Source: Variovorax davisae (lineage in GTDB: Bacteria > Pseudomonadota > Gammaproteobacteria > Burkholderiales > Burkholderiaceae_C). From it: DNA of 64,000 nt. Positions within the stretch are counted from its first letter, which is position 1, and every line of letters begins with the position of its first letter. Position numbers and translations under genes: made by a program. This document shows positions 39,148 through 63,624 of this stretch, in pieces. The notes under the pieces were generated by a model. The model ran no database searches and was not told where the DNA came from. It saw only the letters and a list, made by a program, of their open reading frames with translations. The stretch lies in assembly GCF_030316845.1 (NCBI RefSeq), contig NZ_JASZYS010000002.1, positions 496,001 to 560,000 of the forward strand. The letters run 5' to 3'.

Positions 39148-39155
39148 CGGCGGGG

Positions 39156-40478: not shown

Positions 40479-40497
40479 GAAGGGTCCCCATGAAGGT

Positions 40498-40531: not shown

Positions 40532-40744
40532 CAATGTAGGCAAGTTTCGGAGGGAGTGTTCGAGGGTATTCCCGGGTGGAGCCATGCGCAAACAAGCAAG
40601 GCAATCCCAGCCCCTGCCTCTCGGCGGGTGGATGCGCACGCGCTTCGCGTCGTCGCATTCGTGCAGGGCCTGAAGTAGAAGCAAGAAATGTCCTCTCACG
40701 GCGCCACATCGGTGTGCTGCGGCACGCACGACTGCGCCTGATCT

Positions 40745-47366: not shown

Positions 47367-48851
47367 TCAGTGCGCCTCGGCCTGCTTGGCGGCCGCGACG
47401 ATCGCCGCCTCGTCATGCTTGGCCCCGTTCAGGAACAGGTTCAACAGCACCGCGCAGACCGAAGCCAGCAGGATCCCCGACTCCACCAGCGAGTGGATCG
47501 CGTGCGGCATCCACTGCTTGAAGTTGGGTGCCAGCAGCGGGATCATGCCGACGCCGATCGACACCGCGACGATCATCGCGTTGTGGCGGTTGGTCTTGAA
47601 GTCCACGCCCGAGAGGATGCGGATGCCGGTCGCCGCGACCATGCCGAACATCACCAGGCCGGCACCGCCCAGCACCACGGTGGGCAGCGACTCGACCAGT
47701 GCCGCCATCTTCGGCAGCAGGCCCAGCACGACAAGGATCACGCCGCCGGCCACGCAGACGTAGCGGCTCTTGATGCCGGTCACCGCCACCAGCCCGACGT
47801 TCTGCGAGAAGCTGGTGTACGGGAAGGTGTTGAAGATGCCGCCGATCAAGGTGCCCAGGCCGTCGGTGCGCAGGCCGCGCGCCAGGTCCTGCTGGCTGAT
47901 CTTGCGCTCGGTCATCTCGCCGAGCGCGAGGAACATGCCGGTCGACTCGATCATCACCACGATCATGATCAGCGACATCGTGAGGATCAGCACCGGGTCG
48001 AATTTCGGCATGCCGAAGTGGAAGGGCAGCACGATGTCGAACCAGGCCGCGCTGCCGACCTTCTCGAAGGTCATGAAGCCGAAGAGGGTCGCGACCACCG
48101 CGCCGATCACGATGCCCAGCAGCACCGAGATGTTGGCGATGAAGCCGCGGGCGTACTTCACGATCAGCAGGATCGACACCAGCACCAGGGCCGCGATGGC
48201 CAGCCCGCCGAGGTCGGCGTAGCGCGGGTTGGGCACCGACGGCACGATCGACAGCCCCTTGGGCAGCGGCGGCACGGCCGAGCCGGGCGACGTGACATCG
48301 GCCAGCCACTTGGCGTACACCGGGTCGACCAGCGCCGGCGCGGTCGGGCCGACCGGGTTGCCGAAGATCCAGTTGATGCCCACGCGCATCAGGCTGATGC
48401 CGATCACCGCGATGATGGTGCCGGTAACCACGGGCGGAAAGAAGCGCAGCATGCGCGAGACCATCGGCGCGATCAGGATCGAGATGATGCCAGCGCCGAT
48501 GATCGCGCCGAACAGCAACTGCGCGCCGGCCTGGCCCGGGTTGGCGTTGGCGATCGCGACCATCGGTGCGACCGACGCGAAGGTCACGCCCATCATCACC
48601 GGCAGCTTGATGCCGAACCACTGGGTGGCGCCCAGCGCCTGGATCAGGGTCGCGATGCCGCAGCAGAACAGGTCGGCGGAGATCAGCAGCGCGACCTCCT
48701 GCGGCGTGAGCTTGAGCGCGCGGCCGACGATCAGCGGCACCGCCACCGCGCCGGCATACATCACGAGCACGTGCTGCAGGCCGAGGGCCGCGAGTTTGCC
48801 GGCCGGCAGGCGCTGGTCGACCGGGTGGATGGAAGGCGAGGCAGCCGTCAT
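47367..48851 (-). CDS. Nucleobase:cation symporter-2 family permease (xanthine/urate type)
   Basis: A 494-residue membrane carrier of the NAT/NCS2 family with about 14 hydrophobic segments. The family signature QNVGLVAVTGIKSRYV lies in the second half, and TGI at its end matches the purine-type rather than uracil-type members. The N-terminal QHVL motif is also present. It likely imports xanthine or urate with protons. A TGTATACA palindrome lies 85-92 bp upstream of its start, identical to those at the GntR/hiuH and puuD promoters, supporting a purine role. Confidence 0.9.
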   Translation of the reverse strand: MTAASPSIHPVDQRLPAGKLAALGLQHVLVMYAGAVAVPLIVGRALKLTPQEVALLISADLFCCGIATLIQALGATQWFGIKLPVMMGVTFASVAPMVAIANANPGQAGAQLLFGAIIGAGIISILIAPMVSRMLRFFPPVVTGTIIAVIGISLMRVGINWIFGNPVGPTAPALVDPVYAKWLADVTSPGSAVPPLPKGLSIVPSVPNPRYADLGGLAIAALVLVSILLIVKYARGFIANISVLLGIVIGAVVATLFGFMTFEKVGSAAWFDIVLPFHFGMPKFDPVLILTMSLIMIVVMIESTGMFLALGEMTERKISQQDLARGLRTDGLGTLIGGIFNTFPYTSFSQNVGLVAVTGIKSRYVCVAGGVILVVLGLLPKMAALVESLPTVVLGGAGLVMFGMVAATGIRILSGVDFKTNRHNAMIVAVSIGVGMIPLLAPNFKQWMPHAIHSLVESGILLASVCAVLLNLFLNGAKHDEAAIVAAAKQAEAH

Positions 48852-48934
48852 TGCGTGGACTCCTGGGCAGCGTGGAGGAAGGGGAGGGGCGAACGCTTCG
48901 TTGCGTTGAATCGTTCACCGTTCTGTACGCGAAA

Positions 48935-48945
48935 CTGTATACAAA
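48935..48945. promoter_or_regulatory. TGTATACA operator upstream of the nucleobase permease
   Basis: The perfect palindrome TGTATACA lies at 48936-48943, flanked by C and AA. It is in the promoter region of the minus-strand permease. The same octamer appears at 59064-59071 and 60909-60916. A GntR-type regulator encoded at 58368-59042 is the likely ligand. Confidence 0.65.
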
Positions 48946-49048
48946 CCAGGTGATCGCCTGTATGGCGGAAAACCCGTGGTGTGGCCTTGCAAATCGCGGG
49001 CCCGCCGCCGCCGTCGCAAAAACGTAGAAGAAATAATGATTCATCTTG

Positions 49049-49063
49049 TTACTTTTGAAGTAA
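49049..49063. promoter_or_regulatory. Inverted repeat TTACTT-N3-AAGTAA upstream of a small gene
   Basis: A 15-bp inverted repeat lies 77 bp before the 82-residue protein gene, in an AT-rich part of the otherwise GC-rich gap from 48852 to 49139. It may be an operator for the small-gene pair. No regulator is identified. Confidence 0.4.
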
Positions 49064-49139
49064 TTAGGCACAATGTATTACATCGATGTGCGGCCGATCC
49101 CCGGCGCGACACGATCCACCCTTTCCATGCGAGGCCCCC

Positions 49140-49388
49140 ATGAAGACCCAGAAACAGGCAATCAATGAAGGCTACGACGTCGATCTGTCGGGCCCCGGAC
49201 GACCGATGGGCGCCAAGGGCAAGTACCCGGACTTCGACGTGATCCCCCTGCTCACGGAGATGGAGGCCGAGCTCATCAACACGCTGGGCCTGGTGCGCCA
49301 GCTGCTGCTCGAAGGCGTGCCGTCGAAGGACGCCCGGGAGGGCGTGGTGCTCGCCATCGACGGGTTGCTGGCCGCCGCGCGCTCGTGA
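49140..49388 (+). CDS. Small acidic protein, unknown function
   Basis: An 82-residue protein from the ATG at 49140, with GAGG upstream. The N-terminal half is polar and glycine-rich, and residues 40-82 are predicted helical with regular leucines. No family is recognised. It is followed 33 bp later by a second small gene with a strong ribosome binding site, and then by an AT-rich island preceding a two-component system. The pair may be part of that system's output or input, but nothing in the sequence proves it. Confidence 0.6.
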   Translation: MKTQKQAINEGYDVDLSGPGRPMGAKGKYPDFDVIPLLTEMEAELINTLGLVRQLLLEGVPSKDAREGVVLAIDGLLAAARS

Positions 49389-49421
49389 TCTTTCGGCGAC
49401 CAACGAACGAGGAGACAGCAC

Positions 49422-49616
49422 ATGAACAGCTACAAGACCGTGAGCCAGGCGACCGGCGTGGCGCGCACCTTGAGCCGCAGCGCCGGCTGCACCATCCTGG
49501 TCTACCAGGCCGGCGACAACCGGTTCGTCACGGCGCGACCGTCCGACGCGGTCAGCGGGCTGGTGATCGGCATCTACCAGAACGGCTACAAGCTGCAGAG
49601 CGCCCAGCGGGCCTGA
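49422..49616 (+). CDS. Small basic protein, unknown function
   Basis: A 64-residue protein starting M-N-S-Y-K-T-V-S. A GAGGAGACA ribosome binding site precedes the ATG. The sequence has alternating polar/hydrophobic stretches (TILVYQAGDNRFVTARP) suggesting a small beta-rich fold. No family is recognised. It lies 33 bp after the 82-residue gene and is likely co-transcribed with it. Confidence 0.6.
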   Translation: MNSYKTVSQATGVARTLSRSAGCTILVYQAGDNRFVTARPSDAVSGLVIGIYQNGYKLQSAQRA

Positions 49617-49945
49617 TTCCCCGAAAACTCTTCGTAGAAAATTTTGGTATCAAATCCAATTAATGGATTGTTATCAATTCAATCAAGATTTCTTCTTTGA
49701 ATACTCGGAAAATTCCGAATTATCAATGAGAAAACTCTGAATTTTGAAAAACCGGATCCGGAATCCTATGTGATCTTTTTCGCGAACTGCTGCATTATTG
49801 ATTCTCGAATGCCTGATGAATTCCATCATCAATTGAGAAACGCCCTAAAATTGCGTTGAATTGTGAGGGGCATGACACTGGAAAAAAACAACAGTCGCCC
49901 TCGCGAGCGGCCTCAGGCCATCGAACTCAACGCAAGGGAATCCAT
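49617..49945. other. AT-rich intergenic island before a two-component operon
   Basis: About 330 bp with much lower GC content than the surrounding genes and no convincing gene. It contains several short inverted repeats: TCGGAA-N2-TTCCGA at 49705-49718, the palindrome CCGGATCCGG at 49752-49761 and TGATG-N5-CATCA at 49814-49828. Long A/T tracts would favour bending and binding of H-NS-like or global regulators. It probably holds the promoter of the response-regulator/kinase pair. Confidence 0.6.
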
Positions 49946-50578
49946 ATGCACTCAGTCATCGTTGTCGACGATCATCCCGCCATTCGCCTGGCGGTCCGGG
50001 CGGCCCTCGAATCCGGCGGCGAGTTCCAGGTCGTGGGCGAGGCCGGCGACGGCCCCTCGGCCCTGGCTACGATCCGCGACCAGCGTCCCGACCTGGTCAT
50101 CCTCGACCTCGACCTGCCGCGGCTCAGCGGGCTCGACCTGATCGAGCGGCTGAGAAAGTCCCTGCCGTCGACCAAGCTGCTGGTGCTGTCGGCCCAGCCG
50201 GAATCCATCTTTGCCGCCCGCACCGTGCAGGCGGGCGCCAATGGCTTCATGAGCAAGAGCGAAGACATGTCGGCCGTCACGCAGGCGGCCAGGACGGTGC
50301 TTGCCGGCTACAGCATGTTTCCATCGTCTGCGCTGTCGTCGCACGGGCACACGAATACCGGCGCCCCGCCCGATGTGTTGATGAAGTCGCTTTCCGACCG
50401 CGAATTGACGGTGCTGCAATACCTGGCGCGCGGCATGAGCAACAAGGAAATCGCCGAAACCCTGTTGATCAGCAACAAGACGATCAGCAGCTACAAGACG
50501 CGCATATTCGAGAAGCTCGGAATTTCCACGCTGGTCGAACTGGTCGATTTCACCCGCGCCCATCACCTCGTCTCCTGA
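49946..50578 (+). CDS. Response regulator of BvgA/EvgA type (NarL family)
   Basis: A 210-residue response regulator from the ATG at 49946, behind an AAGGGAA site. The receiver domain has Asp8, Asp9 and phosphoacceptor Asp54, and Lys near residue 103 (MSKSE). The LuxR helix-turn-helix (LSDRELTVLQYLARGMSNKE) fills the C-terminus. The hybrid kinase gene starts 9 bp later. The pair resembles BvgAS/EvgAS phosphorelays. The AT-rich island upstream probably holds its promoter. Confidence 0.92.
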   Translation: MHSVIVVDDHPAIRLAVRAALESGGEFQVVGEAGDGPSALATIRDQRPDLVILDLDLPRLSGLDLIERLRKSLPSTKLLVLSAQPESIFAARTVQAGANGFMSKSEDMSAVTQAARTVLAGYSMFPSSALSSHGHTNTGAPPDVLMKSLSDRELTVLQYLARGMSNKEIAETLLISNKTISSYKTRIFEKLGISTLVELVDFTRAHHLVS

Positions 50579-50587
50579 AAGGGGCGA

Positions 50588-52705
50588 ATGATGTGGGGGG
50601 AAATGTCGGGGCTCGTGCCCTGGGGATATGAAATCGCTGCCGGATTTGCGCTGTGCTTCGTCATCAGCGTGATCTGGAACCGGAAACTGCGCCATGAGAT
50701 GCGCCGGCGACTCGCCGTCAAAGCCGAATTGCGCGACCAGCTCGCCTTTCAGCGCGCCCTGCTCGACGCCATCCCGCAGGCGATCTGCGTGCGCGACGTC
50801 GAGGCCAGGCTGGTGTTCTGCAATGCCGCCTTCGAGAAGATGTGCGGCACCACCCGCGCCGCCATGGAGGGCAAGACCGTGGGCGAAAGCGGTCTTGACT
50901 ACATCAACCAGGACAATTCGGCCCTGCTCCACGCCCGCTATCTCGACATGCTGGCGACTGGCGAGCCGCTGAACGACGATGTCGACGTGGTCCTCGATGG
51001 CGAGACGCGCCGGCTGGCGCACTGGGCGGTCCCGATCTCCCTGTCGCCGGGCGGCCAGAAGCGCGCCCTGGTGGCCGGCGCGATCGATGTCACCGAGCGC
51101 CACCATCTGATCCATCTGAGCCAGGTCGCGCGGGCCGAGGCCGAGGAGGCCAGCCGCGCCAAGTCCAACTTCCTCGCCACCATGAGTCACGAGATCCGCA
51201 CGCCCATGAACGCCGTGCTGGGCATGCTCGAACTGCTGACGCGTGAAGGCCGGCTGTCGGCCAAGGACCGCGAATCGGTGGACCTGGCCCGGACGTCGGC
51301 CGTGGCCCTGCTCGGGCTCATCGACGACATCCTCGACATCTCCAAGATCGAGGCCGGCGGCCTCGAAATCGCCCTGGCGCCGGCCCGGCTGCCGGCGATC
51401 GTCGACGAGGTGGCCCGGATCTTCGGCGGCCTGGCGCGCCAGCACGGCCTGGCGATGGTGCTCGACATCGATCCCGCGGTCGGCGAATGGCACAGCGTGG
51501 ACGCGGTGCGCTTCAGGCAGATCGCCAACAACCTGGTGAGCAACGCCATCAAGTACACCGATGCCGGCAGCGTCACCGTGCGGCTGCGCCATGTGGGCCG
51601 CGAGGCCGGCGTCGAGACGATCGCCCTCGAGGTCGAGGACACCGGCATCGGGATTGCCCCGGAAGACGTGGCGAACCTGTTCCGGCCGTTCTTCCAGGCC
51701 GAGGCGGCCGGCCCGCGCGCCATCGGCGGCACCGGCCTGGGCCTGCCGATCGTCCAGCGCCTGTGCCGGCTGCTGGGCGGCAGCATCGACGTCCGCAGCC
51801 AGCGCGGCCAGGGCACCTGCGTCCGGGTCGAACTCGCGCTGCAGGCCGCGTCGCCCCCGCAGGCCGCCCCGGCCGCGGCCGCTGCGCCGGAGCCCGGCGC
51901 CTTGCTGCGGCAGCGTGGCCGCAGGATCCTGGCGGTCGACGACCATCCGGCCAACCGGCTGCTGCTGCAGCGCCAGCTCGAGCACCTGGGCCTCGCCTGC
52001 GAACTGGCGGAGGATGGCGAGACCGCCCTGGAACTCTGGCGCGACGGTGGCTTCGACCTGGTCATCACCGACTGTTCCATGCCGGTCATGGACGGCTATG
52101 CCCTGGCGCTAGCCATCCGGGCGCTGGAACACGAGCGTGGCCTGCCGCGCTGCCCGGTGCTCGGCTGCACGGCGCATGTCCAGGAGGAGGACCGGCGCCA
52201 CGCGCTCGAGGCCGGCATGGACGAGTGCCTCATGAAGCCGTTCAGCCTCGATGCCTTGGCGGCGGCGCTGCATCGCCATCTGCCCGCGGATGCGGCCGCG
52301 CCGCGCCTTGCGACACCGGTCGAAGCGCCGCCGCACGAGCCCTTCGAGGCCGCCTTCGACCCGCTGGCGCTGCGCAGCCTGTCCGACGACGACGCCCAGG
52401 TCGAGTCGCGCTTTCTCGAGGCGCTGTGGCGGACCAACCGCAGCGACATCCGCGAACTCGCCGTGCATGTCGGGTCGGGGGCGCTGGCCGAGGCGTCGTC
52501 GGTGGCGCACAAGATCCTGGGCCCGGCCCGGATGGTCCGGGCCCAGCGCGTGATGCGGGCCTGCGAGCTGCTCCAGCGGGCCTGCCGTGGCGAGCCGGCG
52601 CAAAGCCCCGGCGCCGCCTTGGCCCAGCTCGAGGCGGCGGTCGACGAACTCGACCGCGAGATCGAAATGCGGCTGAAGGGCCTGGCGCGGCCTGAACGCG
52701 CCTAG
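50588..52705 (+). CDS. Unorthodox hybrid histidine kinase with PAS, receiver and HPt domains
   Basis: A 705-residue kinase forming a full phosphorelay. One N-terminal membrane segment (about residues 12-30) is followed by a PAS domain (55-175). Next come a kinase core with H-box His201 ([16 protein letters not shown]) and an ATPase domain, a receiver with Asp495 ([11 protein letters not shown]) and a C-terminal HPt domain with His641 (AHKILGPA). This is the BvgS/EvgS core layout, but the large periplasmic Venus-flytrap domains are absent, so sensing must be cytoplasmic or through PAS. The 3' end overlaps the convergent USP gene by four bases. Confidence 0.93.
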
Positions 52706-53610
52706 CCGTTCAAGGCGCCCTTCAGATCCCCGCGTTCGGCCTCGAACCGTTGGCGCGCCGCGGCCCGGGTCGAGGCCTGGAAATCATCCGGCACGATCAG
52801 CACGTCGCTGGTGGCCCAGCACAGCACCCGGTGGGCCACGCTGCCGAACACGAAGTCCGCGATCGGCGAGCTGCGCCGCTTTCCGACCACCAGCAGGTCG
52901 GCGCCCACGTGGTCCTGCTGGACCACCGCCTGGCGGGCGGGGTCGCCGTAGCCGATGGCGCTCATCACGCGGTTGCGGCGGGTGTCGAACGAATCGGTCA
53001 GCCAGAAGATGCGGTCGCGGGCGTGGCGCATGCATTCATGACGGTAGGCCTGGATCGCACGCCGCGATGCCTCGGCCGACCGCAGCTTGGCCTCGTTCAG
53101 TGTGCTGATGGCATGGAACAGCTCGACCTCGGCGTTGCTGTCCAGCATCCATGCCAGCTGGACCAGCCGTTTCGAGGCGGGCGTGAAGTCGACGGCGACC
53201 AGGATGCGTTCGTAGCCCTGGCGCGGCGCGGTCCTGGTCACCAGCACCGGGCAGCGGCACAGGCGCGCCAGCCGCTCGGCCGGCTGCCCCTGCAGCAGCG
53301 AGGCCAGCGTGCGCTCGCGCCGGTGGCTCATGACCAGCAGGTCCGCGCAGCTGGCTTCCTCGGCGACATGCGCCAGCGTGTTCGCGGTCTGGGCGACCGG
53401 CCGCACCGTGAAGCCGAAGCGATGGCCCAGTTTCCTGGCGACATGGGCGAGCCGGCCGGCGCTGTTCGGGGGTGGCGCGCTGCCGCTCGCCGGCAGCACC
53501 ATGAGCTTGAGGACGGCGCGGTGCTCGGCCGCGAGCCGGGCCGCGCGTTCGAGGGCGAGGCGGGATGGCGGTGAGAAGTCGGTCACGGCCAGGATGGATC
53601 GGATGGTCAT
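52702..53610 (-). CDS. Tandem universal stress protein (UspA family)
   Basis: A 302-residue protein with two UspA domains. The first, residues 1-130, starts SILAVTDFSPPSRLALERA. The second, 135-285, starts RILVAVDFTPASKRLVQLA and ends with a GSVAHRVLCWATSDVLIVP segment typical of ATP-binding Usp domains. The first domain's ATP-binding Gly motif is degenerate. It probably supports survival under stress or low oxygen. It is divergent in direction from the two-component operon and overlaps it by four bases at the 3' end. Confidence 0.9.
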   Translation of the reverse strand: MTIRSILAVTDFSPPSRLALERAARLAAEHRAVLKLMVLPASGSAPPPNSAGRLAHVARKLGHRFGFTVRPVAQTANTLAHVAEEASCADLLVMSHRRERTLASLLQGQPAERLARLCRCPVLVTRTAPRQGYERILVAVDFTPASKRLVQLAWMLDSNAEVELFHAISTLNEAKLRSAEASRRAIQAYRHECMRHARDRIFWLTDSFDTRRNRVMSAIGYGDPARQAVVQQDHVGADLLVVGKRRSSPIADFVFGSVAHRVLCWATSDVLIVPDDFQASTRAAARQRFEAERGDLKGALNG

Positions 53611-53699
53611 GGAGGTCTCCTCTTCGCGCGTGGCGCGCGCGCTGGCGCCGCGGTCGAGGCACGACCGCGCGCTGCGTGGGCTGGAAAAGGCGGCGCGCG

Positions 53700-54101
53700 C
53701 TAGCGCGTGTAGTCGCCGCTGGCTTCGGGCTGGTAGGCCATGGCGACGATCTCGGCCGCGCCTTCTTCGCCGCCGGGCAGCTGCCAGCGCGCGACCGCGC
53801 CGACCTTCAGGCCGAGCAGGGCGCTGCCGACCGGCGACAAGACCGAGATGAAGCCGGCACTGGGCTCCGAGTCGCCGGGAAAGCAGACGGTCAGCGTCTG
53901 CCGGCGCCGCGTGTGGGGGTCGACCAGTTCGACCTGCGAATACATCGTGACGATGTCCGCGGGAACCTCGCGCGAGCGCGTCACTTCGGCCGCGCCGAGG
54001 ACGTTGGCCAGCGCGGGCGGCAGATGGCCGTCGAGCAGCTTGCTCAGGCGCGAGAAGTCATGTTCGGTGAGCGTTCGCTCGCCGAGGATGGTTGCATGCA
54101 T
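53700..54101 (-). CDS. Rnk / GreA-GreB C-terminal-domain family protein
   Basis: A 133-residue protein whose second half matches the GreA/GreB C-terminal domain. Characteristic segments are VTMYSQVELVDP and SVLSPVGSALLGLKVG. It lacks the N-terminal coiled coil that reaches into RNA polymerase, so it is Rnk-like rather than a transcript cleavage factor. Rnk proteins bind RNA polymerase and compete with Gre factors. It starts 90 bp upstream of the universal stress protein gene on the same strand and may share its stress control. Confidence 0.85.
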   Translation of the reverse strand: MHATILGERTLTEHDFSRLSKLLDGHLPPALANVLGAAEVTRSREVPADIVTMYSQVELVDPHTRRRQTLTVCFPGDSEPSAGFISVLSPVGSALLGLKVGAVARWQLPGGEEGAAEIVAMAYQPEASGDYTR

Positions 54102-54404
54102 GGGGACGCACTCCTGGTCGAATGCGGGCCGACCGAACGACGGGCAGGCACCGCGACGCGCGAGGTGGGTGCCCGGCGGTCGATGGTTGCGCTGAATGGG
54201 AGGGAAGCGGCCGCCGGGCTTAGGAATGTGCGGGCGTCGGCTGCAGGCCTGCCGCGCGCGCAGAAAACATCGGCTGCGCGAGCGCAGCGTGGTTCTGGAA
54301 GCGGGACGGGGCGTGCATGGGCCCGAGTGTATCGGGCAGTCACGCGAGGCTCAACCAATGGCCTCACGGTCCTTGCCAGATAGGGGCAACCGATCAGTGG
54401 CGCC
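54102..54404. other. Intergenic region upstream of the Rnk-like gene
   Basis: These 303 bp separate the stop of the purine-operon M20 gene from the start of the Rnk-like gene; both genes run on the minus strand. I see no convincing gene. A weak inverted repeat, TTGCC-N7-GGCAA, lies at 54373-54389. The region probably carries the Rnk-like promoter and the end of the purine operon, but no clear terminator T-tract was found. Confidence 0.5.
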
Positions 54405-55631
54405 TCACGTGAGTAGATCGCTCAGCGTGCGCGCGATGACCTTGGTGGCGCGTCGCAGGTCTTCGAGCACCACGCGCTCGTCGTTGCGCTTGGCATGCGA
54501 CTCGAGCACCGTGCGCGGACCGGCGCCGTAGATCACGCCCGGGATGCCGGCCTCGCCGTACAGCCGCACGTCGGTGTAGAGCGGGGTGCCCATCGCCTTG
54601 ATCGGCTCGCCGAAGAGTTCCTGGCCGTGCTTCTGTATGGCCTCGACCAGCGGCTTGTTGCCGGCCAGCGGCTTCATCGAGTTGGCCAGCAGCATGCGCT
54701 TGATCTCGACCGTGATGCCGGGCAGCTGCGCGGCGGCGTCGGCGATGACCTGGCGGATCGTGGCCTCGACCTCGATCGGGTTCTCCTCGGGGATCATCCG
54801 GCGGTCGAGCTTGAAGACCACCTTGCCGGGCACCACGTTGGTGTTGGTGCCGCCCTCGATGCGGCCGACGTTGAGGTAGGGGTGCGTGATGCCCTCGACC
54901 TTCGACGTCACCTGCTGGTAGAGCGTGTTCTGCGAATAGAGCGCGTTGAGGATGTGGACCGCACCCTGCAGCGCGTCGACGCCGGTGGTCGGGATGGCCG
55001 CATGCGCCATCTTGCCGTGCACCGTGACTTCCATCTGCAGGCAGCCGTTGTGGGCGGTGACCACTTCGTAGCTGAAGCCGGCGGCGATCATCAGGTCCGG
55101 CTTGGTCAGGCCTTGGGCGAGCAGCCAGCCCGGGCCCAGGATGCCGCCGAATTCCTCGTCGTAGGTGAAGTGCAATTCGACGCCGCCCTTGGCCGGCTTG
55201 GCGACCGCTTCGAGCGCGCGCACGGCGAAGGTGAAGCTGGCGAAGTCGCTCTTGCTCACCGCCGCGGCGCGGCCGTAGAGGCTGCCGCCGTCGATCTCGC
55301 CGCCGTAGGGGTCGTGGGTCCAGCCTTCGCCGGGCGGCACGACGTCGCCGTGGGCGTTGAGGGCGACGGTGCGGCCGCCGCTGCCGTACTTGCGGCGCAC
55401 GATCAGGTTGGTGATCGATTCGAGGCCGTAGTCCTTGACTTCCTGCGCGGGCACGGGATGCTTCTCGGCCTCGAAGCCGAAGGCCTGGATCAGCTCGGCC
55501 GTGCGCTCGGCGTGCGGCGCGTTGTTGCCGGGCGGGGTGTCGGTGGGCACGCGCACCAGCGCCTGCAGGAAGCGGACTTCCTCGTCGAAGTGGGCGTCGA
55601 TCCAGGCGTCGAGTTTGGTGTAGTCGGTCAT
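54405..55631 (-). CDS. M20 family metallohydrolase (ArgE/DapE-like) in the allantoin operon
   Basis: A 408-residue di-zinc hydrolase. The metal and catalytic motifs are NAHGDVVPPGEGW (near residues 91-103), DEEFGG near 158 and the later C-terminal His motif. The family includes deacetylases, deacylases and allantoate or ureidoglycolate amidohydrolases. The start at 55631 is one base after the preceding gene's stop, so it is translationally coupled to the UraD-allantoate amidohydrolase fusion. A ureidoglycolate-cleaving step is otherwise missing from the window, and this enzyme is a candidate for it. That is inference. Confidence 0.85.
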   Translation of the reverse strand: MTDYTKLDAWIDAHFDEEVRFLQALVRVPTDTPPGNNAPHAERTAELIQAFGFEAEKHPVPAQEVKDYGLESITNLIVRRKYGSGGRTVALNAHGDVVPPGEGWTHDPYGGEIDGGSLYGRAAAVSKSDFASFTFAVRALEAVAKPAKGGVELHFTYDEEFGGILGPGWLLAQGLTKPDLMIAAGFSYEVVTAHNGCLQMEVTVHGKMAHAAIPTTGVDALQGAVHILNALYSQNTLYQQVTSKVEGITHPYLNVGRIEGGTNTNVVPGKVVFKLDRRMIPEENPIEVEATIRQVIADAAAQLPGITVEIKRMLLANSMKPLAGNKPLVEAIQKHGQELFGEPIKAMGTPLYTDVRLYGEAGIPGVIYGAGPRTVLESHAKRNDERVVLEDLRRATKVIARTLSDLLT

Positions 55632-55632
55632 G

Positions 55633-57411
55633 TCAGTGGGCCGGGTCGGTGGCGAGGTTGTCGAGCAGCAGCTGGAAGGCCTGCACGGCCAGCTGCATGT
55701 CGTCGTTGGTGCTCGATTCGAGCGGGTTGTGGCTGATGCCGGAGTTGATGCCACGCACGAACAGCATCGCCTGCGGCATCACCTCGTGCAGCTTCATGGC
55801 GTCGTGGCCGGCGCCGCTGGGCATGCGGAACAGCGGCACGCCGAGCGTGTCGACCGCCCGCTCCCAGCGCTGCTGCCAATCGGGGGCGCTGGGCGCGGCC
55901 GCGGCGCGCATGGTTTCCTCGAGCGTGTGGCGCACGCTGCGGCGCTCGCAGATGTCCTTCAGCGCGGCCACCACGTCGTTGGCCAGCGCATCGCGCTGGG
56001 CGTTGTTCGGCGCCCGCAGGTCGAGGCTGAACTTGCAGCGCCCGGGCACCACGTTGATCGAGCCGCTCGGCACTTCGAGCATGCCGACCGTGGCGACCGA
56101 GTCGCCGTCCTTGGCGGCGCGCTGCTCGGCGTACAGGATCAGCTCGGCCACCGCGGCCGCGGCGTCGCGGCGGCGGTCCATCGGGGTGGTGCCGGCGTGG
56201 CTGGCCATGCCGATGACTTCGCCGACATAGCGCACGCTGCCGTTGATCGAGGTCACGATGCCGAGCGGCAGGTCGAGCTCGGTCAGCACCGGGCCCTGCT
56301 CGATGTGGACCTCGACGAAGCCCAGGTACTTCGACGGGTCGCGCTGCAGGGCGGCGATGTCCTCGTCCTTCAGGCCCGCATGGCGGCGGGCCTCGCGCAT
56401 CGTGATGCCGTCGGCATCCTGCTGGTCGAGCCAGCGGGTGTCGAAATGGCCGATCAATGCGCCGGAGCCCAGGAAGGTGGCCTTGTAGCGCTGGCCTTCC
56501 TCCTCGGCGAAGCCGACCACCTCGAACGCGAAAGGCAGGCGGCGGTTCTGCCGCTTGAGTTCGCGCACGCAGGCCATCGGCACGAAGATGCCGAGCCGGC
56601 CGTCGTACTTGCCGCCATTGCGCACGGTGTCGTAGTGCGAGCCGGTGAGCAGCGCGCGGGCACCGGGCGTGGCGCCTTCGTAGCGGCCGACCACGTTGCC
56701 GACGGCATCGATCTGCACGCTGTCGAAGCCGGCCTCGCGCATGTCGGCGGCGATCTGGGCGGCGCAGGCGCGGTGGGCGTCGGTGAGGTAGGTGACGGTG
56801 AGCTGGCCCTTCTCGGCGTAGCCCGGGTCGGTGTGGACCGAGAGCTTCTCGTGCCAATCCCAGACATCGTTGCCGAGCGTGGGGGTGGCGTCGAACTTGT
56901 CGTCGAGGCGGATCTCGGCGATGCGGTGGATGTTGCGCAGCGCCTCGCCGAGCTCGAAGTCCGGGTGGTGGTGCACGCGGCGCTCGAAGGTGTCGATGAT
57001 CTCGCGCTTGGCCAGGCCGGTGCCGCGCGGGCCGCGCACCGCGAGGATGAACGGGAAGCCGAACTTGGCGTTGTAGTCGGCGTTGAGCTGCTGGATCTTC
57101 GCGAACTCCTCCGGCGTGCAGTCGGTCAGGCCGGCCTTGTTCTGCTCGTTGGTCGACTCCGCCGTCAGGCTCTTGCTGACCATCGCCTTGCCGGCGAGTT
57201 CCGGGTGGGCGCGGATCAGGCCGAGCTGCTCGGCGCGCGCGGCATGGGTCACGGCCTGCACCAGCGCGTGCTTGAGGTGCGGCAGCGACCGGAACGGCCG
57301 CGACACCAGCGATCGCGCCGCGATCCAGGGCGAATGCTCGTAGACGCCGTCGAGCAGCGCGACGGCTTCGTCGGCCGAGGCCGCGTTGAGTTGGTCGATG
57401 GTGAGCGCCAT
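55633..57411 (-). CDS. uraD-allC: OHCU decarboxylase (UraD) fused to allantoate amidohydrolase
   Basis: A 592-residue bifunctional protein. Residues 1-170 are 2-oxo-4-hydroxy-4-carboxy-5-ureidoimidazoline decarboxylase with the catalytic His69 in RAHPELAGKA. Residues 180-592 are an M20-type allantoate/carbamoylase hydrolase with zinc ligands His259 (GSHYDT), Asp270 and the Glu303-305 cluster (FAEEEG). UraD makes S-allantoin from OHCU, and the second part hydrolyses allantoate to ureidoglycine, CO2 and ammonia. Allantoinase, the step between them, is encoded one base upstream. The reading frame is continuous with a normal linker, so this is a true gene fusion. Confidence 0.92.
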   Translation of the reverse strand: MALTIDQLNAASADEAVALLDGVYEHSPWIAARSLVSRPFRSLPHLKHALVQAVTHAARAEQLGLIRAHPELAGKAMVSKSLTAESTNEQNKAGLTDCTPEEFAKIQQLNADYNAKFGFPFILAVRGPRGTGLAKREIIDTFERRVHHHPDFELGEALRNIHRIAEIRLDDKFDATPTLGNDVWDWHEKLSVHTDPGYAEKGQLTVTYLTDAHRACAAQIAADMREAGFDSVQIDAVGNVVGRYEGATPGARALLTGSHYDTVRNGGKYDGRLGIFVPMACVRELKRQNRRLPFAFEVVGFAEEEGQRYKATFLGSGALIGHFDTRWLDQQDADGITMREARRHAGLKDEDIAALQRDPSKYLGFVEVHIEQGPVLTELDLPLGIVTSINGSVRYVGEVIGMASHAGTTPMDRRRDAAAAVAELILYAEQRAAKDGDSVATVGMLEVPSGSINVVPGRCKFSLDLRAPNNAQRDALANDVVAALKDICERRSVRHTLEETMRAAAAPSAPDWQQRWERAVDTLGVPLFRMPSGAGHDAMKLHEVMPQAMLFVRGINSGISHNPLESSTNDDMQLAVQAFQLLLDNLATDPAH

Positions 57412-57412
57412 G

Positions 57413-58363
57413 TCAGTCTCCTTGGCGAGTGGCGTAGGGGTGCGTCGCCTTCCAGTGTCGCGCGATGTCGAGCCGGGTACAGACCCAGACCCGGTCGTGG
57501 GTGGCGATGTGGTCGAGGAAGCGCTGCAGCGCCGTGATGCGCCCAGGCCGCCCGAGCAGGCGGCAGTGCATGCCGATGCTCATCATCTTGGGCGCCTCGT
57601 CGCCTTCGGCATAGAGGGCGTCGAAGCTGTCCTTCATGTACTGGAAGAAGGGGTCGGCGTGCGAGTAGCCCTGCGGCAGCGCGAAGCGCATGTCGTTGCA
57701 GTCGAGCGTGTAGGGCACGATGAGTTGCGGCACGACCTGGCCGTCGGTCTTCTGCACCTTCATCCAGAAAGGCAGGTCGTCGCCGTAGTAGTCGCTGTCG
57801 TATTCGAAGCCGCCGTAGTCGGCCACCAGGCGGCGCGTGCGCGGGCTGTCGCGGCCGGTGTACCAGCCGAGCGCGCGTTCGCCGGTGAGCTTCTCGATGG
57901 CTTCCATGCCGAGGCGCATGTGTTCGCGCTCGGTGGCTTCGTCGAGGTTCTGGTAGTGGATCCAGCGCCAGCCGTGGCAGGCGATCTCGTGGCCCAGTTC
58001 CTTGAAGGCCGAGGCCAGTTCTGGGTATCGCTCGAGCGCCATGCCGACGCCGAACACGGTCAGCGGCAGGCCGCGCTTCTCGAACTCGCGCAGGATCCGC
58101 CAGACGCCGGCGCGCGAGCCGTATTCGTAGATCCCTTCCATGCTGATGTGGCGATCCGGATAGCTCGCGGGATTGAACATCTCGGACAGGAACTGCTCGC
58201 TGCCGGCATCGCCGTGCAGCACGCAGTTCTCGCCGCCTTCCTCGTAGTTGAGGACGAACTGGACCGCGATGCGGGCGCGGCCCGGCCATTGGGCGTGCGG
58301 CGGATTGCGGCCGTAGCCGACCAGGTCGCGCGGGTAGGGAAGGGTCGTGTCGTAAACGCTCAT
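57413..58363 (-). CDS. puuE: Allantoinase, polysaccharide-deacetylase-like (PuuE)
   Basis: A 316-residue metal-independent allantoinase of the PuuE family, related to polysaccharide deacetylases rather than to amidohydrolases. Typical segments are RIAVQFVLNYEEGGEN near residue 30, a HGDAGSEQFLSE segment near 50, ACHGWRW near residue 128 and GWYTGRDSPRTRRL near residue 165. It converts allantoin to allantoate. It lies 4 bp after the GntR gene and one base before the UraD fusion, in one tight operon. Confidence 0.94.
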   Translation of the reverse strand: MSVYDTTLPYPRDLVGYGRNPPHAQWPGRARIAVQFVLNYEEGGENCVLHGDAGSEQFLSEMFNPASYPDRHISMEGIYEYGSRAGVWRILREFEKRGLPLTVFGVGMALERYPELASAFKELGHEIACHGWRWIHYQNLDEATEREHMRLGMEAIEKLTGERALGWYTGRDSPRTRRLVADYGGFEYDSDYYGDDLPFWMKVQKTDGQVVPQLIVPYTLDCNDMRFALPQGYSHADPFFQYMKDSFDALYAEGDEAPKMMSIGMHCRLLGRPGRITALQRFLDHIATHDRVWVCTRLDIARHWKATHPYATRQGD

Positions 58364-58367
58364 GGTG

Positions 58368-59042
58368 TCATGCGAGTGCGAGTGAGATGTCGTGCGTGGG
58401 GACCTTGCGGTCGAAGGTGAGGTTGGCCTCGACGTGCTCGAGGTGCTCGGTCATGAGGCGCACGGCGCGCTCCTCGTCCTTGGCGGCCAGCGCCTTGACG
58501 ATGTCGGCGTGCTCGTCGTTCGAATGCTCGGCCGCGGTGGCGCTCTGGTACATCAGCGTGATGAGGGCGCAGCGCGAGATCAGCTCGCCGAGGATCTGCG
58601 CCAGCACGGTGTTGCCCATGAGCTCGGCCATGCGCACGTGGAAGTCGCCGAGCAGTTCGGTGCGGCCCGAGACGTCTTCGCCCGACACCGCCGCCTTCTC
58701 GAGCGCCACGTGCTCCTTGAGCGCCTTGATCTTGGCCGGCGTGACGCTGCGCACGAAGGCCCGCGTCATCTCGGCCTCGAGCATGCGGCGCACCGCGAAC
58801 ACCTGCCGGGCCTCGTCGACCGCCGGCGCCGCCACGAAGGCCCCGCGCGCGGGTTCGAGCCGGATCAGCTTGTTCTGCGACAGCTGGAACAGCGCCTGCC
58901 GCACCAGCGTGCGCGAGACGCCGAAGTGGTCGGCCAGCTTCTGCTCGGCCAGCTTGCTGCCGGGTTGCAGCCGGTGCTCCACAATGGCCTTGGTGAGTGC
59001 GTCGACGATCGCGCGGGTGGTGGTCGAGTCCATGCTTTTCAT
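58368..59042 (-). CDS. GntR family regulator (FCD subfamily) of purine catabolism
   Basis: A 224-residue regulator from the ATG at 59042; a later ATG at 59033 is possible. The frame is open further upstream, but that part runs over a TGTATACA operator and is unlikely to be coding. The winged helix (residues 10-75, FGVSRTLVRQALFQLSQNKL) precedes the FCD ligand domain. It heads the allantoin operon and diverges from HIU hydrolase. Its likely sites are the TGTATACA palindromes at 48936, 59064 and 60909. Confidence 0.9.
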   Translation of the reverse strand: MKSMDSTTTRAIVDALTKAIVEHRLQPGSKLAEQKLADHFGVSRTLVRQALFQLSQNKLIRLEPARGAFVAAPAVDEARQVFAVRRMLEAEMTRAFVRSVTPAKIKALKEHVALEKAAVSGEDVSGRTELLGDFHVRMAELMGNTVLAQILGELISRCALITLMYQSATAAEHSNDEHADIVKALAAKDEERAVRLMTEHLEHVEANLTFDRKVPTHDISLALA

Positions 59043-59062
59043 GATAGACCCAAAGCCCAGAA

Positions 59063-59073
59063 CTGTATACACT
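59063..59073. promoter_or_regulatory. TGTATACA operator between the GntR gene and hiuH
   Basis: The palindrome TGTATACA at 59064-59071 lies between the divergent GntR start (59042) and the hiuH start (59117). It continues as CTT, as does the site before puuD, giving eleven identical bases (TGTATACACTT). It is well placed for autoregulation and for control of both operons. Confidence 0.7.
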
Positions 59074-59116
59074 TTTGTCGACCGTAATTTCCCCAATGCA
59101 TTGAAGGAGCAGATCG

Positions 59117-59479
59117 ATGGGCCTGAGCACTCACGTACTGGACACCATGCACGGCAGCCCCGCCGCCGGCATGGAGGTGGCGCTGTTCACGACCGATGGC
59201 ACCGGCGAGGACGCCCGCGCCACGCTGGTGCGGCGTTTCAAGCTGAACGCCGACGGCCGCAGCGACGGGCCGCTCTATGACAACAGCACGCTCAAGACCG
59301 GCACCTACCGGCTGGTGTTCGATGTCGCGGGCTACTTCAAGGCCCGCGGCGTGACCTTGCCCGAGCCGAACTTTCTCAATCGCGTGGCACTGGACTTCGG
59401 GGTCGCCCACACCGACCAGCACTACCACGTGCCGCTGCTGGTGAGCCCGTGGAGCTACTCCACCTACCGGGGCTCGTGA
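59117..59479 (+). CDS. uraH: 5-hydroxyisourate hydrolase (HIUase)
   Basis: A 120-residue transthyretin-like protein. It has the STHVLDTMHG N-terminal motif and ends Y-R-G-S, the diagnostic C-terminus of HIU hydrolases. It opens 5-hydroxyisourate, the product of urate oxidation, to OHCU. An AAGGAG site lies eight bases before the ATG. It is divergent from the GntR regulator with the operator in between. Confidence 0.95.
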   Translation: MGLSTHVLDTMHGSPAAGMEVALFTTDGTGEDARATLVRRFKLNADGRSDGPLYDNSTLKTGTYRLVFDVAGYFKARGVTLPEPNFLNRVALDFGVAHTDQHYHVPLLVSPWSYSTYRGS

Positions 59480-59480
59480 G

Positions 59481-59981
59481 CTACTGCTGGCCTTCGCTGA
59501 GCGTATCGAGTTGGAAATGACCGCCTTCGTCCCACAGCCAGGTGTCGGTCCAGGTCACCTTGCCCAGCCGCGTCGCCGCCGGGTAGGGCGCGTCCATCAG
59601 CACCGTGCGCTCGATCTCGGCGATCACCTCGGGGGCATGGGTGGGCGCCCGCATCCAGTGCATCGACAGCACCCTGCCGTCGGCATCGAGGTTGACCTGC
59701 AGCGTGCCGACGGCGTAGAGCAGCGGCGGCAGCTTGCCGCCGTAGATCCGGTCCTTGTTGATCTCGTAGACGTGGCGGGCGGCGTCCTTGCGGTAGTCGC
59801 GCGCCGTGGCGGCGTTCGACGCCCGCGGCTTGCCGCGGCTCTGGTCGGCGGGCTCCGGGCGGGCGCTGCTGAGCTGGCCCGGCACGGCGCCGGTCGGCGC
59901 GGTGCTGCAGCCGGCCAGCCAGACGCTGGCGAGGAGGGCGGCCGCCAGGGCGAGGCGGCGCGAAGTGGTCTGAAATGGCAT
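59481..59981 (-). CDS. Lipoprotein with a TonB-C-like domain
   Basis: A 166-residue lipoprotein. The signal peptide ends in the lipobox LAGC with the lipidated Cys at residue 25. The C-terminal half, residues 60-166, matches the short TonB_C-like beta fold seen in small cell-envelope proteins. It is anchored to a membrane and may bind an envelope protein. It is convergent with hiuH and lies between two purine genes without an evident purine role. Confidence 0.75.
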   Translation of the reverse strand: MPFQTTSRRLALAAALLASVWLAGCSTAPTGAVPGQLSSARPEPADQSRGKPRASNAATARDYRKDAARHVYEINKDRIYGGKLPPLLYAVGTLQVNLDADGRVLSMHWMRAPTHAPEVIAEIERTVLMDAPYPAATRLGKVTWTDTWLWDEGGHFQLDTLSEGQQ

Positions 59982-60034
59982 CGGCGGGTTTATACCGTGC
60001 CCGGCCGGGCGCCGGGCAACCGGAGGTATCGCCG

Positions 60035-60847
60035 ATGACCGGCGCCGTCGACGAACTGCTGCTGCGCCTGCAGCGCCAGCGCGGCGTGCTGGTGCGCGTG
60101 GTCTCGACCCAGGGCTCGGCGCCGCGCGAGGCCGGCACCTGGATGGCGGTCTGGCCCGACGGGCTGACGGCCACCATCGGCGGCGGCCAGCTCGAATTCC
60201 AGGCCACCGACGAAGCCCGCGCCTGGCTGGCGGGCGGCCCGCCGATCGAGGGCGTGCAGCGCTATCCGCTGGGTCCGAGCCTGGGCCAGTGCTGCGGCGG
60301 CGTGGTGTTCCTGTCCTACCAGCTGGTCGATGCCGCCGACGCGGCGTCGCTGCAGTCCGAGCTGCTGGCGCAGCTGGCGCCGGTGGCGCTGTTCGGCGGC
60401 GGCCACGTGGGCGCGGCGCTGGCGCGGCTGCTAGCGACGCTGCCGTTCGCGGTGCGCTGGATCGACAGCCGCGACGGCGTGTTCCCGGCCGAACTGCCGG
60501 CGCAGATCGAGACCGAGCATTCCGATCCGGTGCAGCAGGCGGTGGCGCAGCTGGCGTCGGGTGCGCGGGTGCTGATCATGAGCTTCAGCCACGCCGAGGA
60601 CCTGGACATCGTGATCGCCTGCCTCAAGCGGCTGCGCGAGCGCGACGACCTGCCCTACGTCGGCCTGATCGGCAGCAAGACCAAGTGGGCCACCTTCAGG
60701 CACCGGCTCGAGGCGCGCGGCTTCTCGGCTGCGGAGATGGACCGCGTGACCTGCCCGATCGGCGTGCCCGGCATCAGCGGCAAGGAGCCCGAGGTGATCG
60801 CCGTGGCGGTGGCGGCACAGTTGTTGCAATCCCTGCCGAAAGCATGA
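60035..60847 (+). CDS. xdhC: Xanthine dehydrogenase accessory protein XdhC
   Basis: A 270-residue protein from the ATG at 60035, behind a GGAGG site. An N-terminal XdhC/CoxI domain covers residues 1-95 and a Rossmann-type domain with the GGGHVGAALARLL motif follows. XdhC inserts sulfurated molybdenum cofactor into xanthine dehydrogenase. The structural genes xdhA and xdhB are not in this window, so this copy is separated from them or they lie elsewhere. It fits the purine theme of the region. Confidence 0.9.
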   Translation: MTGAVDELLLRLQRQRGVLVRVVSTQGSAPREAGTWMAVWPDGLTATIGGGQLEFQATDEARAWLAGGPPIEGVQRYPLGPSLGQCCGGVVFLSYQLVDAADAASLQSELLAQLAPVALFGGGHVGAALARLLATLPFAVRWIDSRDGVFPAELPAQIETEHSDPVQQAVAQLASGARVLIMSFSHAEDLDIVIACLKRLRERDDLPYVGLIGSKTKWATFRHRLEARGFSAAEMDRVTCPIGVPGISGKEPEVIAVAVAAQLLQSLPKA

Positions 60848-60907
60848 GGGCGCTCAGGGTTTTCCAGCACGCCAGGTGATGCAAAATCCACGAGCCAGCC
60901 TTCAAAA

Positions 60908-60918
60908 TTGTATACACT
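60908..60918. promoter_or_regulatory. TGTATACA operator upstream of puuD
   Basis: The palindrome TGTATACA at 60909-60916 lies in the 210-bp gap between xdhC and puuD, 142 bp before the puuD start, and continues as CTT like the hiuH site. It marks a likely independent promoter for puuD-ttuD under the same GntR regulator. Confidence 0.65.
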
Positions 60919-61057
60919 TCAGTCCACAACAAGCCGCAGCGGAGCGAGATTCCACCCCGGGTCTGCGTTCGCGGCACTTTCTCTGCTTACAGCGCCCGCA
61001 GTGGTGAGCAGGTCGGAACACCTCGGTGCCCCCATGCGCCGACAAGGTTGAGAGCAA

Positions 61058-62263
61058 ATGGAAAGCTACTACCTCGACTGGGCCAACCTGCTCCTGCGCT
61101 GGGTCCATGTCATCACGGCCGTCGCCTGGATCGGCGCGTCCTTCTACTTCGTGATGCTGGACAACAGCCTCGAGAAGCCCGAGGACCAGGAATCGCTCGA
61201 CAAGGGCGTCGGCGGCGAGCAATGGGCGGTGCACGGCGGCGGCTTCTACAACATGCAGAAGTACGCGCTGGCGCCCAAGCGCCTGCCCGACCATCTGCAC
61301 TGGTCGTACTGGGAAAGCTATTCGACCTGGCTCACGGGCTTCGCGCTGTTCACGATGTCCTATCTGTGGAACGCCAGCACCTACCTGATCGACAAGTCCA
61401 AGATGGACTGGCAGCCGGGCGCCGCGATCGGCGTCGCGCTGGCCTTCTTCGTCGTCTTCTGGATGGTCTACGACAGCATCTGCCAGCTGTTCGGCCGGCG
61501 CAAGAACGGCGACACCATCGTCGGCGTGCTGGTCGCGGTCTTCATCGCCTTCGCGGCCTGGCTGGCCTGCCAGTGGTTCGCCGGCCGGGCCGCCTTCCTG
61601 CTGGTCGGCGCGATGATGGCCACCACCATGAGCGGCAACGTGTTCTTCTGGATCATCCCCGGCCAGCGCAAGAACGTGCAGGCGCTGCGCGAAGGCCGGC
61701 CGGTGGATCCGGTGCACGGCCAGCGCGGCAAGCAGCGCAGCGTGCACAACACCTACTTCACCCTGCCGGTGCTGTTCGCGATGCTGAGCAACCACTACAG
61801 CTTCACCTACACCCACAAGTACAACTGGATCGTGCTGCTGCTGATCATGCTCGGCGGCGCGGCGATCCGGCAGTTCTTCGTGGTGCGGCATCGCTTCAAG
61901 CTCGGCAATGCGGGCAACCCGATTCCCTACGCGCTCTTCGGCATCGCGGTGCTGGGCCTGACCATCATCTGGATGAAGCCCGAGCCGGCGGCGGCACCGG
62001 CGCCCGGGGCGGCGGTGCAGAAGGTCAGCTTCGGCGACGTGCAGAAGGTGCTGGAGCAACGCTGCTACATGTGCCACGGCGCGCAGGTGCAGATGAAGAA
62101 CGTGCGCCTCGACACGTCCGACCAGGTCGCGGCGCATGCGCAGGCGGTGTACCAGCAGGTGGTGGTCACCAAGATCATGCCGATGAACAACGCGACCGGC
62201 ATCACCGACGCCGAGCGGGCCCTGATCGGCAAGTGGTTCGAAGGCGGTGCCGGCACGAAGTAG
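61058..62263 (+). CDS. puuD: Cytochrome-c-type urate hydroxylase PuuD
   Basis: A 401-residue protein. About eight membrane segments form the N-terminal urate oxidase domain (residues 1-310), and a C-terminal cytochrome c domain carries the haem motif CYMCH (Cys336, Cys339, His340). It oxidises urate to 5-hydroxyisourate and passes electrons into the respiratory chain instead of making hydrogen peroxide. This class replaces soluble uricase in many proteobacteria. It has its own TGTATACA operator and is followed 27 bp later by glycerate kinase. Confidence 0.94.
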   Translation: MESYYLDWANLLLRWVHVITAVAWIGASFYFVMLDNSLEKPEDQESLDKGVGGEQWAVHGGGFYNMQKYALAPKRLPDHLHWSYWESYSTWLTGFALFTMSYLWNASTYLIDKSKMDWQPGAAIGVALAFFVVFWMVYDSICQLFGRRKNGDTIVGVLVAVFIAFAAWLACQWFAGRAAFLLVGAMMATTMSGNVFFWIIPGQRKNVQALREGRPVDPVHGQRGKQRSVHNTYFTLPVLFAMLSNHYSFTYTHKYNWIVLLLIMLGGAAIRQFFVVRHRFKLGNAGNPIPYALFGIAVLGLTIIWMKPEPAAAPAPGAAVQKVSFGDVQKVLEQRCYMCHGAQVQMKNVRLDTSDQVAAHAQAVYQQVVVTKIMPMNNATGITDAERALIGKWFEGGAGTK

Positions 62264-62289
62264 CATCTGGCGCAGGAGACCAGCAAGCC

Positions 62290-63624
62290 ATGACCCCGAC
62301 GACCCCCCGGCCGATCCCCGACGCGCATTCGGCCCCGCGTGAATTCCTGGAGCATCTCTACCGCGTGGCGGTCGAGCGGGCGCTGCCGCTGGCCAGCATG
62401 GGCGGCTACCTGCCCGCACCGCCCAAGGGACGCACGCTGGTGCTCGGCGCCGGCAAGGCCGGCGGCTCGATGGTCCAGGCGCTCGAGGCGCTCTGGCCGG
62501 CGGACGCTGCGCTGTCCGGCCTGGTGGTCACGCGCTATGGCCACATCCCGCCGCGCCCCGCCGGGCTGGCCGCGCGCATCGAACTGGTCGAGGCAGCCCA
62601 TCCCGTGCCCGACCAGGCCGGGCTCGACGCCGCCCAGCGCATCCTCGCGCTGACCCAGGGGCTGACGGCCGACGACCTGGTGCTGTGCCTGATCTCGGGC
62701 GGCGGCTCCTCGCTGCTGACCCTGCCGGCCGAAGGGCTCACGCTGGCCGACAAGCAGCGCATCAACACCCAGCTGCTCGAGTCGGGCGCCCACATCGGCG
62801 AGATGAACTGCGTGCGCAAGCATCTCTCGCGCATCAAGGGCGGCCGGCTGGCCGCCGCCTGCGCACCGGCGCAGGTCGTGACCCTGACCATCAGCGACGT
62901 GCCGGGCGACGACCCGGCCGTGATCGCCAGCGGCCCCACCGTGCCGGATGCGAGCCGCTGCGCCGACGCGCTGGCGATCCTCGACCGCTACCGGATCGAG
63001 CTGCCCGCGGCGGTGCGGGCCCGGCTCGAAAGCGGTGCGCTCGAGACCCCGAAGCCGGGCGATGCCGCCTTCGACGGCCACCAGACCCATGTGATCGCGG
63101 CCCCGCAGCAGTCGCTCGAGGCGGCCGCGGCGGCGGCGCGCGCGGCCGGCATCGAGGCCCATGTGCTGAGCGACGAGATCGAAGGCGAATCGCGCGAGGT
63201 CGGCAAGGTGCACGGCGCCCTGGCGCGGTCGGTGTCGCTGCGCGGCGCGCCCTTCGCCAAGCCCTGCGTGATCCTGTCGGGCGGCGAGACCACGGTCACG
63301 ATCCGGCCGCGGCAACCCGGCCAGGCCAAGGGCCGCGGTGGCCGGGCGGGCGAGTTCTGCCTGGGGCTGGCGGGCGCGCTGGCCGGCCGCGAGGGCGTCT
63401 GGGCGCTGGCCGCCGACACCGACGGCATCGATGGCGTCGAGGACAACGCCGGCGCCATCGTCACGCCCGACACGCTGCGCCGGGCCGAGGCGGCGGGCGC
63501 CAAGCTGGCCGACCACCTCGACCGCAATGACGCCTACGGCTACTTCGACGCCGTCGGTGACCTGCTGGTGACCGGGCCGACCCATACCAACGTCAACGAT
63601 TTCCGGGCCCTGCTGATCGTGTAG
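62290..63624 (+). CDS. ttuD: Glycerate 2-kinase (TtuD/MOFRL family)
   Basis: A 444-residue enzyme of the MOFRL/glycerate 2-kinase family. Hallmarks are GAGKAGGSM near residue 55, CLISGGGSSLL near residue 136 and the C-terminal GRGGRAGEFCLGLA plus ADTDGIDG segments. It phosphorylates D-glycerate to 2-phosphoglycerate, completing the route glyoxylate, tartronate semialdehyde (Gcl), glycerate (GlxR), 2-phosphoglycerate. It is 27 bp after puuD, so glyoxylate assimilation is tied to urate breakdown. The ATG follows an AGGAG-like site. Confidence 0.93.
   Translation: MTPTTPRPIPDAHSAPREFLEHLYRVAVERALPLASMGGYLPAPPKGRTLVLGAGKAGGSMVQALEALWPADAALSGLVVTRYGHIPPRPAGLAARIELVEAAHPVPDQAGLDAAQRILALTQGLTADDLVLCLISGGGSSLLTLPAEGLTLADKQRINTQLLESGAHIGEMNCVRKHLSRIKGGRLAAACAPAQVVTLTISDVPGDDPAVIASGPTVPDASRCADALAILDRYRIELPAAVRARLESGALETPKPGDAAFDGHQTHVIAAPQQSLEAAAAAARAAGIEAHVLSDEIEGESREVGKVHGALARSVSLRGAPFAKPCVILSGGETTVTIRPRQPGQAKGRGGRAGEFCLGLAGALAGREGVWALAADTDGIDGVEDNAGAIVTPDTLRRAEAAGAKLADHLDRNDAYGYFDAVGDLLVTGPTHTNVNDFRALLIV

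Follow-up and report, generated by a model that had tools for sequence, protein, structure and literature searches.

A conserved palindrome as the probable operator of an FCD-type GntR regulator of purine and urate catabolism in Variovorax

The 64-kb stretch of Variovorax davisae DNA analysed here (henceforth the window) carries a cluster of purine catabolism genes, several of whose promoters share the palindromic octamer TGTATACA, and this work concerns the relation between that octamer and a GntR-type regulator encoded in the same cluster. Genes were identified by comparison with Pfam and NCBIfam profiles. On the minus strand lie pbuX, a member of the NCS2 xanthine permease family (47367-48851), and a gene run that begins with gntR, encoding an FCD-type GntR regulator (58368-59033), continues with the allantoinase gene puuE (57413-58363) and a fusion of OHCU decarboxylase and allantoate amidohydrolase (55633-57411), and ends with an ArgE/DapE-like M20 hydrolase (54405-55664). 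On the plus strand lie uraH, encoding hydroxyisourate hydrolase (59117-59479), puuD, encoding a membrane urate oxidase (61058-62263, identified with Pfam), and, directly 3' of puuD, a MOFRL glycerate 2-kinase gene (62260-63624). XdhC was also among the identified proteins. These profiles bear out the functions that the original prediction had assigned to the permease, GntR, uraH and puuD genes.

The octamer occurs exactly three times in the window, at the positions given in that prediction: at 48936-48943 on the minus strand, 84 bp upstream of pbuX; at 59064-59071, a strandless site common to gntR (minus) and uraH (plus); and at 60909-60916 on the plus strand, 141 bp upstream of puuD. Shuffled sequences contain 0.02 such sites on average, and none of 100 shuffles reached three. 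The second and third sites are the same across 11 bases (TGTATACACTT), as had also been noted. If one mismatch is allowed, three further sites are found in the window, at 2484, 2501 and 40522 (mean expectation of 1.47). The last of these, TGCATACA, belongs to a region (38452-40709) in which a paralogous FCD-GntR gene adjoins a sodium:dicarboxylate symporter gene.

The product of gntR scores 59.1 bits against PF00392 and 85.4 bits against PF07729, both above the gathering cut-offs. It is a GntR regulator of the FadR (FCD) subfamily, with an N-terminal GntR domain and a C-terminal FCD domain. Its closest named match is from Variovorax sp. J22P240 (99%), and of 299 genomes from its bacterial family, 119 have a match at E <= 1e-75. 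Among 369 genomes sampled from the class, scores of 406-423 bits were obtained only in the window's genome and two others of the family, with the next relative at 209 bits. Alignments make a start at ATG 59042 or ATG 59033 the more likely choice and favour the latter, which corresponds to the near-invariant M4 of the GntR alignment. A start at TTG 59096 was rejected, given that the operator would then fall inside the gene and that conservation starts near 59042/59033. Many FCD domains hold a metal site formed by an Asp four residues before a His, together with further His residues. Here H135, H178 and H200 are invariant in alignments of 61 and 33 sequences, and all 33 sequences of the smaller alignment have Leu131 four residues ahead of H135; in our own reading of the alignments, 7u5q and 3sxy have Asp at the matching position. 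The usual metal site may be altered in this regulator.

Conservation of the octamer was assessed in two sets of loci. Set 1 comprises 60 loci from 60 genomes of many genera of the family, picked by the presence of the GntR gene and not of the site, whereas set 2 comprises 80 named loci ordered by the likeness of their regulators, some of them from genomes of set 1. In set 1, a site was counted when the exact octamer lay at most 250 bp upstream of a gene, and genes less than 250 bp from the end of a locus were excluded. There, the exact site was found at gntR in 57 of 60 loci (all 60 within one mismatch), at uraH in 50 of 53 (51 within one mismatch), at puuD in 23 of 45 (35 within one mismatch) and at pbuX in 21 of 28 (25 within one mismatch; locus L077 is counted twice through a split match). 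The corresponding exact counts in set 2 are 77/79, 76/78, 54/65 and 13/16. No exact site was present at puuE, M20, xdhC or the OHCU fusion, either in set 1 (0/59, 0/58, 0/48 and 0/58, the fusion having two within one mismatch) or in set 2 (79, 75, 73 and 76 genes, respectively). Overall, 116 cores were found in set 1 against 1.2 expected and 164 in set 2 against 0.9 expected; 106 and 143 of these, respectively, lie at gntR, uraH, puuD, pbuX or kinase promoters. Within the window's own genus, the exact octamer stands in the gntR promoter of 25 of 25 genomes.

Two further kinds of transporter gene have sites of this type upstream in related loci. Near the purine cluster of locus L200, a gene for an NMT1/THI5-like binding protein (17324-18427; protein checked) has its own upstream TGTATACA, and the same arrangement is seen by sequence likeness in L071, L095, L118, L119, L203, L208, L210 and L212; in those relatives, the NMT1-type transporter may be part of the regulon. 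In several Variovorax loci, an NCS1 permease promoter contains TTGTATACAA in other flanks (gcgttatTTGTATACAaaa...gcaatcaa), examples being L062:3122 and L161, where the permease gene occupies L161:15084-16577 and its identity was checked. A paralogous GntR is the probable reader of this site.

Across the entire genome (7,180,008 bases in 44 contigs), TGTATACA occurs nine times, against three for a reversed-pattern control. Three of the nine are those described above, and the claim that the octamer occurs only at these promoters stands for the window and fails for the genome. The other six lie inside an AMP-binding open reading frame (L005), between another FCD-GntR gene and a divergent short-chain dehydrogenase gene (L006:1501-1508), between pgk and pyk (L007:1501-1508, or C7:111863-111870), near a thioesterase (L011), between a Meth_synt_2 gene and a VanA-like Rieske oxygenase gene (L012), and between an SBP_bac_3 gene and a run of oxidoreductase genes (L013). 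The core is thus rare but not purine-specific. Since one of these six sites stands beside another FCD-GntR gene, other GntR proteins probably read similar cores, which would be general to the FCD type. The suggestion that genomic sites would cluster at xdhAB and ureABC found no backing. In the 20 kb fetched around xdhB (C12:599598), the sole one-mismatch core is inside xdhB, and the region upstream of xdhAB has neither an exact nor a one-mismatch site. Visual inspection of the open reading frames in the six 3-kb loci around the other genome sites revealed no urease gene, nor did a scan of nine proteins from these loci; the genome as a whole was not searched for urease.

Whether the site follows the regulator was examined in more distant genomes. 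Among the 180 genomes of the family below the ortholog threshold, UraH was sought in 80, each from a different genus; it was present in 55, of which 50 were analysed. With a GntR of 53-61% identity encoded within about 1.5 kb, the exact octamer is found at uraH in 33 of 33 cases, compared with 5 of 17 where no GntR is adjacent (Fisher 5e-8). When a GntR of at least 194 bits anywhere in the genome is considered instead, the uraH site is present in 35 of 37 genomes with it and in 3 of 13 without it (Fisher 1.6e-6). The two genomes that have the regulator and lack the uraH site (G247 and G243) have gntR divergent from puuD, with octamers upstream of both genes.

A rival reading is that the three sites are chiefly read by another GntR paralog of the genome and not by the adjacent one, or that several paralogs share them. 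In favour of this, the genome encodes several FCD-GntR relatives, among them three more at 193-195 bits, the same core occurs beside the different FCD-GntR gene of L006, and three genomes (G168, G241 and G245; loci L313, L314 and L332) retain the octamer at uraH although no GntR matched at 1e-35. Nevertheless, the uraH site tracks this particular GntR, the site lies in the promoter of this gntR itself in nearly all set 1 loci, and it shifts to puuD in genomes with divergent gntR and puuD genes. We consider a paralogous main reader, or reading shared among paralogs, improbable, and regard the adjacent GntR as the likely one.

Similar arrangements are seen beyond the family. Eleven genomes from other families of the class (L243-L253) have GntR relatives at about 34-41% identity, seven of which adjoin puuE, uraH, puuD, pbuX or the OHCU fusion, and four of those seven loci (L245, L246, L250 and L251) contain the exact TGTATACA. 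Because such distant relatives adjoin purine genes together with the core, the link of this GntR type, purine genes and core probably predates the family. Taken across these genomes, the comparison hints at a wider purine-GntR group.

The conserved element is longer than the octamer. The combined extended symmetric consensus is AAAAGTGTATACACTTTT. The conserved part is an 18-bp palindrome, and the consensus GTGTATACAC contains GT and AC separated by two bases. A weaker GT..AC box lies 12-13 bp from the core, towards the start of uraH, puuD or pbuX. In the window, it is found at 48924-48931 for the pbuX operator (4/6 matches to TGTNNACA), at 59076-59083 on the plus strand for the gntR-uraH operator (TGTCGACC, 5/6) and at 60921-60928 on the plus strand for the puuD operator (AGTCCACA, 5/6), all three counted by hand. 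Among related sites, a second box with at least 4/6 matches at the best of four offsets is present at 72% of 50 uraH sites, 78% of 23 puuD sites and 86% of 22 pbuX sites, compared with 6-24%, 4-43% and 14-50%, respectively, in five control offset groups. The signal is clearest at uraH, and some pbuX sites have an additional box at about +24.

On the gntR side, the core contains TATACA, which can be taken as a -35 hexamer, followed at 17 bp by a TATcAT hexamer with at least 4/6 matches in 67% of 58 sites; at other spacings within 14-20 bp, the signal does not exceed 10%. In the window, the candidate -10 of gntR is TATCAT at 59041-59046 on the minus strand. A signal resembling TTGACA, seen 19 bp upstream for uraH (at least 4/6 in 52%), was discarded, as it is the gntR -10/start region read in reverse. 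The TATACA-TATCAT pair, along with the resemblance of TATACA itself to a -10 hexamer, raises the question of whether the octamer is mainly a core promoter element (-35 or -10) rather than an operator. We judge this very unlikely: the conserved part is an 18-bp palindrome and not a hexamer, the octamer is rare in the 7.18-Mb genome and much rarer at uraH without the regulator, its distance from the start varies widely among uraH, puuD and pbuX, and the spacing survey of related sites found no partner hexamer at the promoters of these three genes. As for chance occurrence of a short palindrome, the other genome sites do show that the octamer occurs elsewhere, yet this carries little weight, and the counts against expectation in the window and in both sets of relatives refute it for practical purposes.

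Given the above, the three sites are very probably operators of the adjacent FCD-GntR (58368-59033), which would act as a repressor of purine and urate catabolism. Comparative genomics lends strong support to the claim that import, urate oxidation and allantoin hydrolysis are under the control of this one regulator, through the conservation of the site at gntR, uraH, puuD and pbuX and its co-occurrence with the regulator. Glycerate entry, also claimed, is backed only indirectly: in the window the kinase gene directly follows puuD, but a kinase site of its own is exact in only 3 of 24 cases in set 1 (five within one mismatch) and in none of 51 in set 2.

Several observations weigh against this interpretation. 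Repression is assumed from the habit of the family and the position of the operators. The Fisher values ignore the relatedness of the genomes, and two of the 13 genomes without the GntR (G157 and G233) are less than 90% complete; the three genomes that retain the uraH site without a GntR match also count here. The exact site is missing at puuD in 22 of 45 set 1 loci, ten of which do not have even a one-mismatch core, and three gntR genes of that set (L092, L104 and L111) show a one-mismatch core only. In addition, the controls behind the second-box signal are uneven, and the core alone is not specific, as the six further genome sites demonstrate.

In the proposed mechanism, the regulator would bind as a dimer to the palindrome in which GT and AC are 2 nt apart, a second dimer perhaps occupying the weaker box beside it, and would repress four units: gntR-puuE-OHCU/allantoate hydrolase-M20; uraH; puuD together with the glycerate kinase; and pbuX. 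Because the gntR operator and the candidate -35 overlap, binding would keep RNA polymerase off this promoter. The site observed in gntR's own promoter is consistent with autoregulation. The gntR-puuE transcript from the candidate promoter would start within 1-2 bases of the conserved ATG 59033, which lies about one base downstream of the predicted start, and is thus predicted to be leaderless. Repression would be relieved when the FCD domain takes up a metabolite of the purine pathway, the candidates being urate, allantoin, allantoate and glyoxylate. If this is correct, purine and urate catabolism in a large family, with Variovorax, Polaromonas and Hydrogenophaga among its members, gains a specific regulator, an exactly defined operator and a list of targets.

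The genome site between pgk and pyk provides a further lead. In Variovorax and Xenophilus, the pyk promoter contains AAAGTGTATACAGT and a second box at +12 (consensus AcAAAGTGTATACAGTAgcGAATACAAA) with a mean of 4.0/6 matches, the next best offset having 3.0, and both the left flank and the tandem layout are the same as in the gntR operator. Of 30 loci (28 from the window's genus and two Xenophilus-like), 26 have the exact octamer at most 110 bp from pyk; all 23 additional loci examined in the family lack it, including one of the Xenophilus-like genus. In many of these 23, a GTAAC..GTTAC-like element was seen by eye before pyk. Glycerate 2-kinase would yield 2-phosphoglycerate and then phosphoenolpyruvate, which would link pyruvate kinase to purine use. 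It is conceivable, though on balance doubtful, that the purine operator spread to pyruvate kinase in these two genera, replacing the GTAAC..GTTAC-like element, and that the purine regulator there ties the last step of the glyoxylate-to-pyruvate flow to purine use. The regulator is present in all 25 genus genomes tested, and for this reason the reader of the pyk site cannot be told from site loss. Should the purine regulator also read this site, a regulator specific to one pathway would have gained a central glycolytic gene as a target in a single lineage, a clear instance of regulon growth.

Apart from these genes, a small lipoprotein-like open reading frame lies between uraH and xdhC on the minus strand (59481-59981), with no Pfam match at 1e-5.

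In comparison with known systems, the best-scoring named models for the regulator are TIGR03338 (PhnR_burk) and the NanR-type FCD regulators. Both have the same GntR-FCD domain order, but the regulator's scores of 132.6 and 75.9 bits are far under the respective curated cut-offs of 271.5 and 260, which rules out both identities. HpxS belongs to the Klebsiella hpx purine system, and purine catabolism is common to HpxS and the GntR of the window, in a comparison made by description. HpxS may belong to the wider purine-GntR group. In Suvorova et al. 2015 (PMC4494728), HpxS is listed among the FadR-subfamily members with 2 nt between GT and AC, so that both the subfamily and the spacing are shared with the window's GntR and its operator. 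No published description of this regulator with this operator was recognised in the literature searches made, and the regulog may already be in RegPrecise, to which PMC4494728 points. The operator consensus given in that paper for the subfamily is NyGTM-N0-1-KACNy, and the present operator fits it in the 2-nt variant as regards GT and AC, the flanking y positions being unscored. The comparative evidence gives good support to a well-bounded regulon of a known FCD-GntR type. PMC4494728 also describes extra boxes for GntR regulators, and a palindrome with a weaker adjacent box is what is found here; unlike those additional boxes as described there, however, the weaker box of the present operators has both GT and AC, is offset by 12-13 bp and lies on the uraH, puuD or pbuX side.

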